Positions 5,678 to 10,658 of a stretch of 48,561 bases of DNA are shown piece by piece (positions within the stretch are counted from its first letter, which is position 1; the number at the start of each line of letters is the position of its first letter). The DNA is from Deltaproteobacteria bacterium. GTDB lineage: Bacteria > Desulfobacterota > Desulfobaccia > Desulfobaccales > 0-14-0-80-60-11. The stretch covers positions 1 through 48,561 of the forward strand of contig VGSQ01000010.1 of assembly GCA_016874975.1 (NCBI GenBank), written 5' to 3'. A program made the position numbers and the translations under genes. The notes below the pieces were generated by a model. The model saw only the letters and a program-made list of their open reading frames with translations. It was not told the DNA's origin and searched no databases.

Positions 5678-6442
5678 TTAACCAGCATCGGGTACGGCGC
5701 CCTCCCCCTTCCATGAAAAACCGTCCGCTTCATCCAGGAGGAAACGTACCGGGGCCAGGTCGCTGAGGAGGCCGGCCAGGCCCCCGCCGTCCCTGCGGGC
5801 CGCCAGGTGTTCCCAGCCGCCCAGATGGACCACCCGTTGATAGCGGCCGACCAGACGCCGCAAGCGCTTCGCCATGAGCTGCTCCCGGCGCCGGTCGTCC
5901 TTTCGGGGCGCCGGCAAGGCCGCCCGGGGGGGATGCTTCAGGAGGCGCCGGGCCCGGGCATATTCCCCGGCCACCCAGGCGGGGAAAGAGCCGTCAGGGG
6001 TGGTGAGCAAGGCCTCCAGGTTGGCCGGAGTGATCAGTTCCAGCGCATAGCGGGGCAGGTGGCGGCGGGCCGCGGCCGCGAGGTCCACCGGCTCCCAGGC
6101 TCGGGCCGCGTCCCGGCTGTAATCCCGGGCCGCCTCATACTCAAAGGGCAGGGCCAGTTGCGCCGCCACCCGTTGCAGGGCCAGGTGCTGCTCGGCCCCG
6201 GGCGGCAGTCGGGCCAGGGATTGTTGGAAGAGACGCCGCCACTGCGCCTGGCGCCGCTCCCGATAGCGCACCGAAAAGGCGCTGATTTCCACCGCGACGA
6301 CGTCCGGGGCCAGGGCCGTCAGCAGCTTCAGGGCCCGCCCGTATCCCCGGGGGTCGCCGTGCACCGTGCCCACCAGCGCCAGGCGGGGAAAGGGAAGACA
6401 AACCGTTTCCCGGATCCGGCTCAAAAATGCATCGTTCGGCAT
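5678..6442 (-). CDS. TraB/ChaN-like hypothetical protein
   Basis: This protein of about 254 residues is not one I recognise firmly. Its N-terminus reads LALVGTVHGDPRGYGRAL and then DVVAVEIS. That pattern, a strand ending in GTxH and a second strand with a conserved Glu, is typical of the TraB/PrgY, ChaN and EreA-like superfamily, which contains putative metal-dependent hydrolases. A second short strand, VVHLGGWEHLA, near residue 210 has the His expected in the same fold. There is no signal peptide or membrane segment. The start at ATG 6442 opens the homologous region, but no good Shine-Dalgarno box lies before it. The gene follows the thymidylate-synthase-like gene on the same strand with a gap of about 160 bases. 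Confidence 0.5.
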   Translation of the reverse strand: MPNDAFLSRIRETVCLPFPRLALVGTVHGDPRGYGRALKLLTALAPDVVAVEISAFSVRYRERRQAQWRRLFQQSLARLPPGAEQHLALQRVAAQLALPFEYEAARDYSRDAARAWEPVDLAAAARRHLPRYALELITPANLEALLTTPDGSFPAWVAGEYARARRLLKHPPRAALPAPRKDDRRREQLMAKRLRRLVGRYQRVVHLGGWEHLAARRDGGGLAGLLSDLAPVRFLLDEADGFSWKGEGAVPDAG

Positions 6443-6604: not shown

Positions 6605-8146
6605 TCAATCCTGCACAAATTCCTTGCCTTCCTTCAGGGCCGACTCGGCCCGGGCCAGTTGCCGGCCCAGGTACATGGCGTGATTGACATCGGAGAGGGC
6701 CAGGTCCCGGGCGATCTGGTGCTGCAGGGCCACCGCGCTCCGGCCCCGGTATTCGGCCAGGGTCACATCCTCATAGCGGTGCTCCACGAAGATTTCCCCG
6801 CCGTCCAGGGAGACCCGGAAATAGCCCATGGGGTCGAGATGCATGCGCCATTTACGCTTTCCGACCACGATGAGAGCCCGGTCCAGCTCCCGGGGGTCGA
6901 TGCTGATGGAGTGGCTGATGACGGTGATGGGCCCCTGGGGAAGGTTCACCCGGTTCGACACCCATTTTTGTATGGCCATCAGTCCGTAAAAATTTCGGAG
7001 CCAGCCGTCCAGGGCGTTATGGGTGCGAAACGTGGCGGTCATGGTTAGCTTGTCTTGAAATTTCCGAAAGAATAATGAAACAAAACACGGATTGCCGGAC
7101 CTGCTTTTCAGATCCTTGCGATTATCCCATAGGGTAAAATAAGCTTTCCGATCCTCGGGATCATTTTTCAGGCGGGTCACAAAGGTTTGCAGGCTGTCAA
7201 TCTTAAAATGTTCCCTCAGACGGTCGCCATAATTATAAGCCTCATCCGGTCTTAATTCTATTTCACTCAGAATGTCAATCTGACCTTTCAGAGATGACTT
7301 TGTTGGTCGCCGTTTTAGTTCGCGGCTGATTTTCGATCTGATAATTTCCGCTTGATATTTTCTCAACCTTTCAATGTCGAACGTAAAGTCCTTCAGTTTA
7401 TTGCTCCAGTCGCCGGTAGGTTTTTCCACTACCGCCTTTACATTTTGCAATTCAATCCGCTCACCTTTCTTCAGAGTTACTCTGCGTCCGAATCTGGTCA
7501 GCAGGAAAATTATCTCCACCCACGCTTTTAACGGAGTATCCTGAATCACTTGATGGGACCGGGGATTGCTGGGAAAATACTGTAATTCCACTTCAGGAAG
7601 GGGCATTTCCAGCCGATCTGTTCCCCGAAAAGGCGCCGGCTGATAACTTGCAAAGAAGTTATGGATGCCCTTCAGAGTGTTGTCTTCTTTGGGGTCCCCC
7701 AGGGTGATCAGTCGGGGCGGCGCCTTGAAGTCCGTCGATTGAACTAGGCTGTCGATCAAGCGGCCGGTGCCCCGGATGCGACAGGTGAAGATCTCAGCAA
7801 TTCCCGAAAGGTGCCGATAACGGGTCGGCCCCGCCTCCACCCGTTCCAAGCCCTCCCCAAAGAAAGCGGACAGTTCATTGGCCGACCCGGACCGGTCGTG
7901 CCCGCAGATGAGCAGGGTGTCGAGCTGGGGATTGTAGAGGAGATTGCGCAGCAGTTCCCGCAGGCCGTTGCCGTAGAGGGTGCCGAAGACGGCAATAGGG
8001 CTGGTGGCCGGGTCCAGGTCCACACCGGCCTCCCGGAAGCGTTCGACGACGTACTCCGGCTTGGACCACAGGGTGACGACGCCCACGGTGCCCTGGGGGT
8101 TGATGATGGTCAGACGGTCGCCGAAATGCAGGGGAATGAACTCCAT
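6605..8146 (-). CDS. Thymidylate-synthase-like protein with an N-terminal DUF4346/MtrA-like domain
   Basis: This 513-residue protein appears to be a fusion. Residues 1-110 contain AVFGTLYGNGLRELLRNLLY and LLICGHDRSGS, reminiscent of the DUF4346/MtrA-like domain attached to archaeal thymidylate synthase homologues. The C-terminal half follows the thymidylate synthase order: YNYGDRLREHF, then SGNPCFVSLFF with the candidate catalytic Cys, then FRTHNALDGWLRNFYGLMAIQ and ISHSISIDP. Classical enzymes have RSxD where this has THNALD. About 100 extra residues follow the core. A dUMP-methylating or related pyrimidine hydroxymethylating role is possible but unproven. ATG 8146 starts the homologous region; the ORF-track N-terminus reads into a repeat. 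The middle third (about 7050-7700) is noticeably AT-richer than both flanks. Confidence 0.65.
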   Translation of the reverse strand: MEFIPLHFGDRLTIINPQGTVGVVTLWSKPEYVVERFREAGVDLDPATSPIAVFGTLYGNGLRELLRNLLYNPQLDTLLICGHDRSGSANELSAFFGEGLERVEAGPTRYRHLSGIAEIFTCRIRGTGRLIDSLVQSTDFKAPPRLITLGDPKEDNTLKGIHNFFASYQPAPFRGTDRLEMPLPEVELQYFPSNPRSHQVIQDTPLKAWVEIIFLLTRFGRRVTLKKGERIELQNVKAVVEKPTGDWSNKLKDFTFDIERLRKYQAEIIRSKISRELKRRPTKSSLKGQIDILSEIELRPDEAYNYGDRLREHFKIDSLQTFVTRLKNDPEDRKAYFTLWDNRKDLKSRSGNPCFVSLFFRKFQDKLTMTATFRTHNALDGWLRNFYGLMAIQKWVSNRVNLPQGPITVISHSISIDPRELDRALIVVGKRKWRMHLDPMGYFRVSLDGGEIFVEHRYEDVTLAEYRGRSAVALQHQIARDLALSDVNHAMYLGRQLARAESALKEGKEFVQD

Positions 8147-8792: not shown

Positions 8793-9008
8793 TTGAGGGC
8801 TGCCGGCGACAGGACAGGAAGGCCCTCTTTCCGGTTGCCAACCGCAGCCGTTTCCCGGATAATCGCGGCAGGCAGTTGCCCTTGCACCTCGAAGGCATTT
8901 AGGTAAAAATAGAAAGATGTTCATGAGGGGAGGGCCGGGTGGCCCCCGGCCCCGTCACCCGGGCCGCCGACTTTTGGAATAGCCGAGACACAGGGAGGGG
9001 TATTGACG

Positions 9009-10073
9009 ATGTCTTTCAAGGAACGCATGTATCTCCGCAGTTTCATGGAAATCAGCAAGGCCCTGGCCTCCACCCTGGCGGTGGACGAGGTCCTGGACCA
9101 GGTGGTCCGCCAGGTCACCGAAGCCATGAACCTCAAGGGGGCCACCATCCGCCTGGTCAATCCCAAGACCAACACCCTGGAGCTGGTGGCGGCCGTGGGG
9201 TTGACCGAGAAGTACCTGCAAAAGGGGCCGGTGGACATGGACCGGTCCATCGCCGACGCCCTGAGCGGCCGGCCCGTGGCCATCACCGACACGGCCTCCG
9301 ATCCCCGCCTGCAGTATCCCCAGGAGGCCCGGGAGGAGGGCATCGCCAGCCTGGTGGCCATCCCCATGCTCTCCAAGGGCAAGGTCATCGGCGTCATGCG
9401 CCTGGTTTCCGGGGAGCCCCGGGAATTCACCATGGACGAAGTGGATTTCGCCTGCTCCGTGGCGGAACTGGGAGCCCAGGCCATCAGCAATGCCAAGATG
9501 TATGAAGAGCGCATCCGGGAGCTCAACCTTCTCAAGGGCATGCTGGAGGTCTCCAAGGCCATCAATTCCGCCCTGGAAGTGAAGAAGGTCCTGCAACTTC
9601 TGGTGAAAACCGCGACCACCGCTCTGGATATCAAGGCCGCCGCGGTGCGCCTGCTGGATGAAAAGCGGCAGATGATGGAACTGGTGGCCTCCTACGGCTT
9701 GAGCGATCGCTACATCACCAAGGGGCCGGTGGGCCCGGATAAATCCATCACCGAAGCCATGATGGGCAAGGCCGTGTCCATTTACGACGTGGCCAGCGAC
9801 ACCCGAGCCACTTATCCCAAGGAAGCGGCCGAGGAAGGCATCAGGTCCATTCTCTCCGTGCCCATCGCCCTCAAAGGCAAGGTCATCGGCGTCATGCGCA
9901 TCTATTCCGCCGAATTGCGGGACTTTTCCGACGAGGAGATCACCTTCCTCTCCTCCCTGGCCGAACAGGCGGCCCTGGCCATGGAAAACGCCCGCCTCTA
10001 TCAGAAGCTCAAGGGGGAATACGAGGCGTTGATGAGCGACCTCTACCGCTTCACCGGCTTCACCCGCTTTTAG
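9009..10073 (+). CDS. Tandem GAF-domain protein
   Basis: This 354-residue soluble protein consists of two GAF domains, roughly residues 10-165 and 175-340, each beginning with a helix (LRSFMEISKALAS and LKGMLEVSKAINS) and ending in a helix of the SLAEQAALAMENARLY type. The two halves are clearly duplicates: RLVNPKTNTLELVAAVGL matches RLLDEKRQMMELVASYGL, and GVMRLVSGEPREF matches GVMRIYSAELRDF. No kinase, cyclase, phosphodiesterase or DNA-binding output domain follows, so it must act as a stand-alone sensor or on a partner. The start at ATG 9009 has GGAGGGG eight bases upstream; the TTG at 9003 is less likely. The ligand is unknown (cyclic nucleotide, small molecule or redox signal). The next gene, 54 bases downstream, belongs to the arsenosugar set, but a functional link is not evident. 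Confidence 0.85.
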   Translation: MSFKERMYLRSFMEISKALASTLAVDEVLDQVVRQVTEAMNLKGATIRLVNPKTNTLELVAAVGLTEKYLQKGPVDMDRSIADALSGRPVAITDTASDPRLQYPQEAREEGIASLVAIPMLSKGKVIGVMRLVSGEPREFTMDEVDFACSVAELGAQAISNAKMYEERIRELNLLKGMLEVSKAINSALEVKKVLQLLVKTATTALDIKAAAVRLLDEKRQMMELVASYGLSDRYITKGPVGPDKSITEAMMGKAVSIYDVASDTRATYPKEAAEEGIRSILSVPIALKGKVIGVMRIYSAELRDFSDEEITFLSSLAEQAALAMENARLYQKLKGEYEALMSDLYRFTGFTRF

Positions 10074-10460: not shown

Positions 10461-10469
10461 GGGGGCTTT

Positions 10470-10600
10470 GGGTTCCGGGTTCCGGGTTCTGGGTTTTGGG
10501 TTCCGGGTTCTGGGTTTTGGGTTCCGGGTTCTGGGTTTTGGGTTTTGGGTTCCGGGTTCTGGGTTTTGGGTTTTGGGTTCTGGGTTTTGGGTTTTGGGGG
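10470..10600 (+). repeat. Telomere-like GGGTTNN heptamer array (18 units)
   Basis: Eighteen consecutive heptamers of GGGTTCC, GGGTTCT or GGGTTTT run from 10470 to 10595 and end in GGGGG. The variants follow a higher-order order, mostly CC-CT-TT triplets, suggesting duplication in 21-base blocks. G-runs every seven bases on one strand could form G-quadruplexes. The translations on either strand (PKTQNPEP-like) are artefacts. Confidence 0.9.
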
Positions 10601-10606
10601 TCCCTC

Positions 10607-10658
10607 GTTCCCAAGCTCCCGCTTGGGAACGCACTTGCCCCCGAAGCTCCTGCTTCGG
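10607..10658. repeat. REP-like tandem hairpin repeat, copy 2
   Basis: This is the same two-hairpin element as at 8274. The first stem is a perfect 10-bp GTTCCCAAGC pair; the second is reduced to 7 bp by changes at its base (CCGAAGC/GCTTCGG). The conserved spacer ACGCACTTGCCCC is shared with copy 1. It directly abuts the heptamer array and lies about 60 bases before arsS. Confidence 0.8.

Follow-up and report, generated by a model that had tools for sequence, protein, structure and literature searches.

A three-domain fusion protein predicted to serve as the thymidylate synthase of a Desulfobacterota class

Introduction

Synthesis of dTMP is essential (and a drug target), and the textbooks know two solutions to it, ThyA and ThyX. 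The window analysed here (a stretch of 48,561 nucleotides from a Deltaproteobacteria bacterium assigned to the class Desulfobaccia) carries a gene in which a thymidylate-synthase-type (TS) core with altered active-site residues is fused to two further domains, and the question raised by this locus is whether such a protein makes dTMP, and with which cofactor chemistry. We predict, with a probability of roughly 0.8, that in this bacterium and class-wide the fusion serves as the housekeeping dTMP-forming TS. The basis for this role consists of the TS-type core, the nucleophile, the phosphate and uracil residues, the near-exclusive occurrence of the gene and its context elsewhere; the replacement of D169, H207 and Y209 (E. 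coli numbering) in all fusions speaks against it, as do the incompleteness of the window genome (94% complete) and a weak DHFR match in five fusion genomes of a phylum in which DHFR is rare in any case.

Architecture of the fusion protein

The gene is an open reading frame of 513 aa on the reverse strand (6605-8146; ATG at 8146, stop at 6605-6607), whose start (MEFIPL) and length are common to its homologs (Table 1). An earlier reading of the sequence alone (the sequence-only reading) had described a TS-type core joined to an MtrA/DUF4346-like N-terminus and followed by a C-terminal extension. The core was confirmed by PF00303 (29.2 bits, gathering cut-off 24.3; residues 306-472), the best NCBIfam match being the archaeal-type TS TIGR03283 (95.4 bits, below its curated cut-off of 174.55). 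The C-terminal extension is likewise present and is itself the DUF4346 domain (PF14251, PterinBD-DUF4346: 74.1 bits, cut-off 29.6; residues 437-513), so that of the proposed N-terminus the MtrA-like part stood, on weak profile evidence, while DUF4346 had to be moved to residues 431-513. The N-terminal part appears MtrA-like on weak or indirect evidence: NF002126 matched the window protein weakly (E=0.0087), the first 135 residues aligned with MtrA-DUF4346 proteins of the same class across 38 columns (hhalign E=3.4e-6), and a homolog (L069) approached PF04208 (MtrA; E=2.3e-4, 21.3 bits, cut-off 25), a profile that gave no match in the window protein.

Table 1. Positions of the fusion gene, its domains and motifs, and its neighbours within the window.
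Feature	Position	Strand	Basis or remark
Three-domain TS fusion gene	6605..8146	-	513 aa + stop; homologs agree in start and length
MtrA-like N-terminal Rossmann domain, residues 1-135	7742..8146	-	without MtrA's cobalt-ligating His84 and Glu54
Variable linker, residues 136-204	7535..7741	-	lowest conservation of the protein; AT-rich block begins here
ThyA-fold TS domain, residues 205-430	6857..7534	-	PF00303; TIGR03283, 95 bits; Foldseek on a family member
25-aa insertion, residues 273-297	7256..7330	-	unique to the window copy among aligned copies
Cys354 = catalytic C146 of E. coli TS	7085..7087	-	alignment
R374-T-H-N377: R166 retained, D169 to N	7016..7027	-	N in 40/40 fusions
S415-I-D417 replacing H207-x-Y209 (ribose 3'-OH site)	6896..6904	-	alignment
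C-terminal DUF4346/PterinBD, residues 431-513	6608..6856	-	PF14251, E 1.6e-20; hhalign 1.5e-15 to the same domain of same-class MtrA-DUF4346 proteins
AT-rich core stretch	7041..7690		44.2% GC, lowest 650 bp across 48.5 kb
TraB-like gene, downstream	5681..6442	-	neighbour conserved in the window genome's own family
Divergent double-GAF gene, upstream	9003..10073	+	conserved across the class, mostly 73-88% identity

The MtrA-DUF4346 proteins (L030, L093-L100; NF002128) share the MtrA-like domain and the C-terminal DUF4346 with the fusion (in L030 both PF04208 and PF14251 were matched by Pfam), and differ from it by lacking a TS core, by carrying GH where MtrA has its His84, and by an extra Cys-rich N-terminus. 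The order MtrA-like/TS/DUF4346 is as if a TS core had been inserted between both domains of an L030-type protein. Proteins of this type with the Cys-rich N-terminus are encoded in related genomes (L030:670-1842, L093-L100), and a search of the window genome for one found none. In MtrA, His84 and Glu54 ligate or support cobalt (PMC4915002). By eye, the window protein has no counterpart of either, while L030 keeps the GH motif; the His84 place in the fusions is taken by the invariant S86/S88 (mapped by hand on the alignment to L030). Corrinoid binding by the MtrA-like domain is unlikely given the loss of both equivalents. A decayed pseudogene was rejected, as the frame is open, the catalytic residues are intact and the family is strongly conserved. 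The literature searched yielded no paper mentioning DUF4346.

Active site and predicted fold

We aligned 40 fusions with L069 and six short TS, E. coli positions being assigned through profile alignments to solved TS. C146, R126, R166 and N177 are retained in every fusion, and D169 is replaced by N in all 40 (an invariant change and no peculiarity of the window copy), H207 by S, G or T in all 40, and Y209 by D in 39 and by N in one. The sequence-only reading was right both in finding the catalytic Cys in place (Cys354) and in noting THNALD instead of RSxD: the window motif F-R-T-H-N keeps R166 and has S167 changed to T and D169 to N. L069 and five of the six short TS retain D169 and H207, and Y209 is present in L069 and in all six. 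In E. coli TS, D169 contacts the pterin, H207 and Y209 bind the ribose 3'-OH, and N177 is the uracil-selecting residue; the three replaced residues (D169, H207 and Y209) have important roles in canonical TS. As judged from the alignment, the residue change is a family property that would affect the pterin and ribose 3'-OH contacts and spare the nucleophile and the uracil contact, and the altered residues suggest a modified site for cofactor and ribose rather than a substrate other than dUMP. No paper on Asp221 mutants of TS was found in the literature searched.

Compared with ThyA (PF00303, E. coli TS), the fusion is alike in core fold, Cys146, Arg126, Arg166 and Asn177, but carries D169N, H207S/G/T, Y209D/N, Q165F and H147L/F, has two extra domains and leaves the ThyA N-terminal part unmatched (PF00303 positions 94-260 only). 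The archaeal-type short TS is its strongest TS profile match and has a similarly compact core, yet the fusion stays under the cut-off and its D/H/Y residues are gone. The short TS of the phylum, unlike the fusion, are stand-alone and mostly show RSWD and HxY, and the L069-type fusion (G191), identical in domain order, differs in keeping RSQD and HVY and in having ThyX in the same genome.

A first AlphaFold model (26 sequences) had a poor TS core, with most of residues 271-353 at pLDDT <50, and for this reason the family member of Desulfobacca acetoxidans was modelled with 47 sequences (pLDDT 89.8, pTM 0.77). This model matches TS-fold enzymes; its best PDB match in Foldseek was AfhB, a phage dCMP hydroxylase (9iqu; TM-score 0.81 of target, rmsd 2.7 Å), against about 0.49-0.65 for the stand-alone canonical TS in the list. 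AfhB, the structure nearest in fold to the TS domain, differs by its low identity (19%), its substrate (dCMP) and its stand-alone form. A related entry (9iqc) is titled 'Monooxygenase dependent on riboflavin with dCMP and FAD', and we take the modelled fold match as a lead that may point to flavin. The literature searched held no paper treating dCMP hydroxylase together with TS.

Occurrence of thymidylate synthases

In the window genome (94% complete) the PF00303 and TIGR03283 searches matched this gene alone, and PF02511 (ThyX) matched nothing, this gene included. The check for a second thyA or thyX, named by the sequence-only reading, thus returned none, leaving the fusion as the sole TS found. 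Across the class, the query protein was matched in 24 of 26 genomes and ThyX in 0 of 26; TIGR03283 detected a ThyA-type core in 27 of 29 class genomes (usually one each), its cut-off of 174.55 being exceeded in no class genome. In G009 and G010 the fusion is accompanied by a short TS. G014 (84% complete) gave a DUF4346-only match to the query and has a short TS instead of a fusion; in this short TS (L091:530-1519) both D169 and H207 are replaced by N, and no fusion was found in that genome. In Desulfobacca acetoxidans, a member of the class, the TS present is of the fusion type only, and this species can grow on acetate as its only source of carbon (PMC3156406).

In the phylum sample, fusions with the FR[TS]HN motif occur in 33 of 394 genomes, and ThyX was found in 1 of these 33 versus 260 of the 361 others (Fisher p 1.2e-15, related genomes being treated as independent). 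ThyX serves the same pathway step as the fusion and differs in having an unrelated fold and in being nearly exclusive with it in genomes. A 34th phylum match is the RSQD relative L069 (G191), whose genome has ThyX. Within the sample, 25 of the 394 genomes (all at least 90% complete, G024 among them) gave no ThyX, PF00303 or fusion match; possible reasons are gaps in the assemblies, profiles of low sensitivity, salvage or an unrecognised type of TS. A plasmid search gave no match to the fusion.

Gene context in bacteria and phage

The neighbours of the fusion gene in the window's class differ from those in families f35, f68, f76 and f86. The TraB-like neighbour is kept in 17 related loci (some overlapping), and a Pfam search of its protein gave no match. 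In the four families, by comparison, a dCMP-deaminase-type gene (PF00383) precedes the fusion gene; it was identified by Pfam in one locus each of f35, f68 and f76 and elsewhere by similarity searches, which recovered it in every locus read in f35, f68 and f86 and in three of four in f76 (L088 lacks it; L086 and L087 are cut at the locus end). HAD-type and alpha/beta-hydrolase genes lie 3' of the fusion in f35, f68 and f86. Examples of the upstream gene are L103:4950-5855, L104:7188-7772 and L106:4151-4759, with the HAD and alpha/beta hydrolase genes following the fusion in L103 and L104. Elsewhere in the window, a short repeat run (PKTRNPK or GFWVLGS, by direction) lies at 10468-10620, between the CMD and radical-SAM genes.

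A three-domain protein with FRTHN (L114:8001-9437) is also encoded on an 81-kb phage contig (L112/L114; IMG/VR UViG_3300035670_000127), where it adjoins ribonucleotide reductase, cobalamin (cob(I)alamin) adenosyltransferase and sliding clamp genes, with terminase, head protease and major head protein close by. A search of phage records returned distant TS only (24-32% identity). Another viral contig carries a short RSWD-type TS near a ribonucleotide-reductase-like gene (L113:2509-3300). The dCMP-deaminase-type and phage neighbours support a role in making DNA precursors.

These observations bear on the supposition of a substrate other than dUMP, under which the fusion would modify another nucleotide (a ribonucleotide, dCMP or other) and dTMP would be supplied by salvage or by an undetected enzyme. 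The loss of the 3'-OH-binding H207 and Y209, the match to AfhB and the existence of G024 (99% complete, lacking every TS type searched) agree with such a role; it is nonetheless opposed by the invariance of N177 in 40/40 fusions, the dCMP-deaminase-type gene adjoining the relatives, the ribonucleotide reductase adjoining the phage copy, the near-exclusivity of fusion and ThyX, and the growth of Desulfobacca acetoxidans on acetate alone, and we regard it as highly improbable. The supposition thus found no support, since the fusion is the sole TS-like gene found in its genome and nearly so class-wide, which is the finding that the sequence-only reading had itself named as telling against its proposal.

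Mosaic origin

The sequence-only reading had singled out bases 7050-7700 as AT-rich and suggestive of a mosaic origin. Their GC content is indeed 44.9% (63.4% for the whole window), and they overlap the 650-bp stretch that is poorest in GC (Table 1). At codon position 3 the window copy has a GC content of 0.9 on both sides of the core and of 0.35-0.5 within it. Phylogeny by domain revealed a significant conflict within the family between the trees of the ends (MtrA-like and DUF4346) and that of the TS core, in line with the proposed mosaic: L008 groups with L016 by its ends and with L010 by its core, and enforcing the alternative placement is worse by 130.5 and 62.8 log units (p-AU 4.7e-8 and 1.2e-4). 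For L008, L003 and L010 the log-likelihood gaps are 63-143, the groups tested having been chosen after the trees were seen. Furthermore, the DNA of L003 and L004 is 85-89% identical near both ends, compared with 43-72% over most of the core. At the family level these data support mosaicism, with cores apparently swapped between lineages.

The core of the window copy joins a group with support 95/88, several members of which also have lower codon-position-3 GC there. A foreign import of this particular core is likely rather than shown, because the ends tree leaves the placement of the window copy open. Relaxed selection or local codon usage with no import, an explanation we hold to be rather unlikely, would sit well with this open placement and with the position of the core among related cores of the same class; it is at odds with the core/ends conflict in the family (for groups chosen post hoc), with the uneven identity of L003 and L004, and with the codon-position-3 dip and recovery in the window copy itself.

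Cofactor chemistry

In the predicted reaction of the fusion, Cys354 would attack dUMP, a one-carbon unit would be taken from a reduced pterin and dTMP would be released. The usual Asp169 would presumably play no part in gripping the pterin, which DUF4346 may bind or present together with the MtrA-like domain; this would account for the retention of both extra domains even in the phage copy. DUF4346 is accordingly named here as a candidate pterin-binding module, Pfam's domain name being its only link to pterin. Binding or use of the cofactor probably departs from the classical mode.

A search with PF00186 (DHFR) gave no match in 26 class genomes. DHFR is rare in the phylum generally (38 of 394 genomes), is present in all four genomes with canonical ThyA, and has a weak DHFR_1 match in five fusion genomes, all of f68. 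H2folate reductases other than DHFR exist, and ThyX also spares DHFR. The absence of DHFR agrees with a TS forming no H2folate but, given those other reductases, is no proof of one; it leans towards H4folate being retained as in ThyX, or towards an undiscovered H2folate reductase.

Two chemistries may be considered for a TS of this kind. The fusion could run the plain ThyA reaction, in which CH2-H4folate gives both the one-carbon unit and the hydride and H2folate is formed, the residue changes being neutral drift and the reductase a non-DHFR one; this account shares the TS role with our preferred explanation and differs in cofactor chemistry. The PF00303 score above cut-off, the retained residues of the core chemistry and the weak DHFR-like gene of the five f68 genomes are in keeping with it, but all three changes co-occur in 40/40 fusions, H207 and Y209 are likewise retained in those relatives that have D169 (L069 and five of the six short TS), and the class has no DHFR. 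We consider it a serious contender at somewhat less than even odds. The other chemistry, which we put forward as speculative and unlikely, would leave H4folate unoxidised, with the pterin on DUF4346 and an outside reductant (flavin or an AfhB-like carrier), so that DHFR would be unneeded. If true, it would constitute a third chemical route to dTMP, present in a phage too.

Implications

Taken together, the class (a cultured species included) seems to depend on a ThyA-fold variant without the cofactor Asp, the ribose pair and DHFR, the two extra domains of which are related to methyltransferase and pterin proteins. Moreover, the exchange of an essential enzyme's core between lineages, as the family trees suggest, is unusual. 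The predicted housekeeping role of the fusion raises a testable question, namely which one-carbon donor and which reductant this TS would use.
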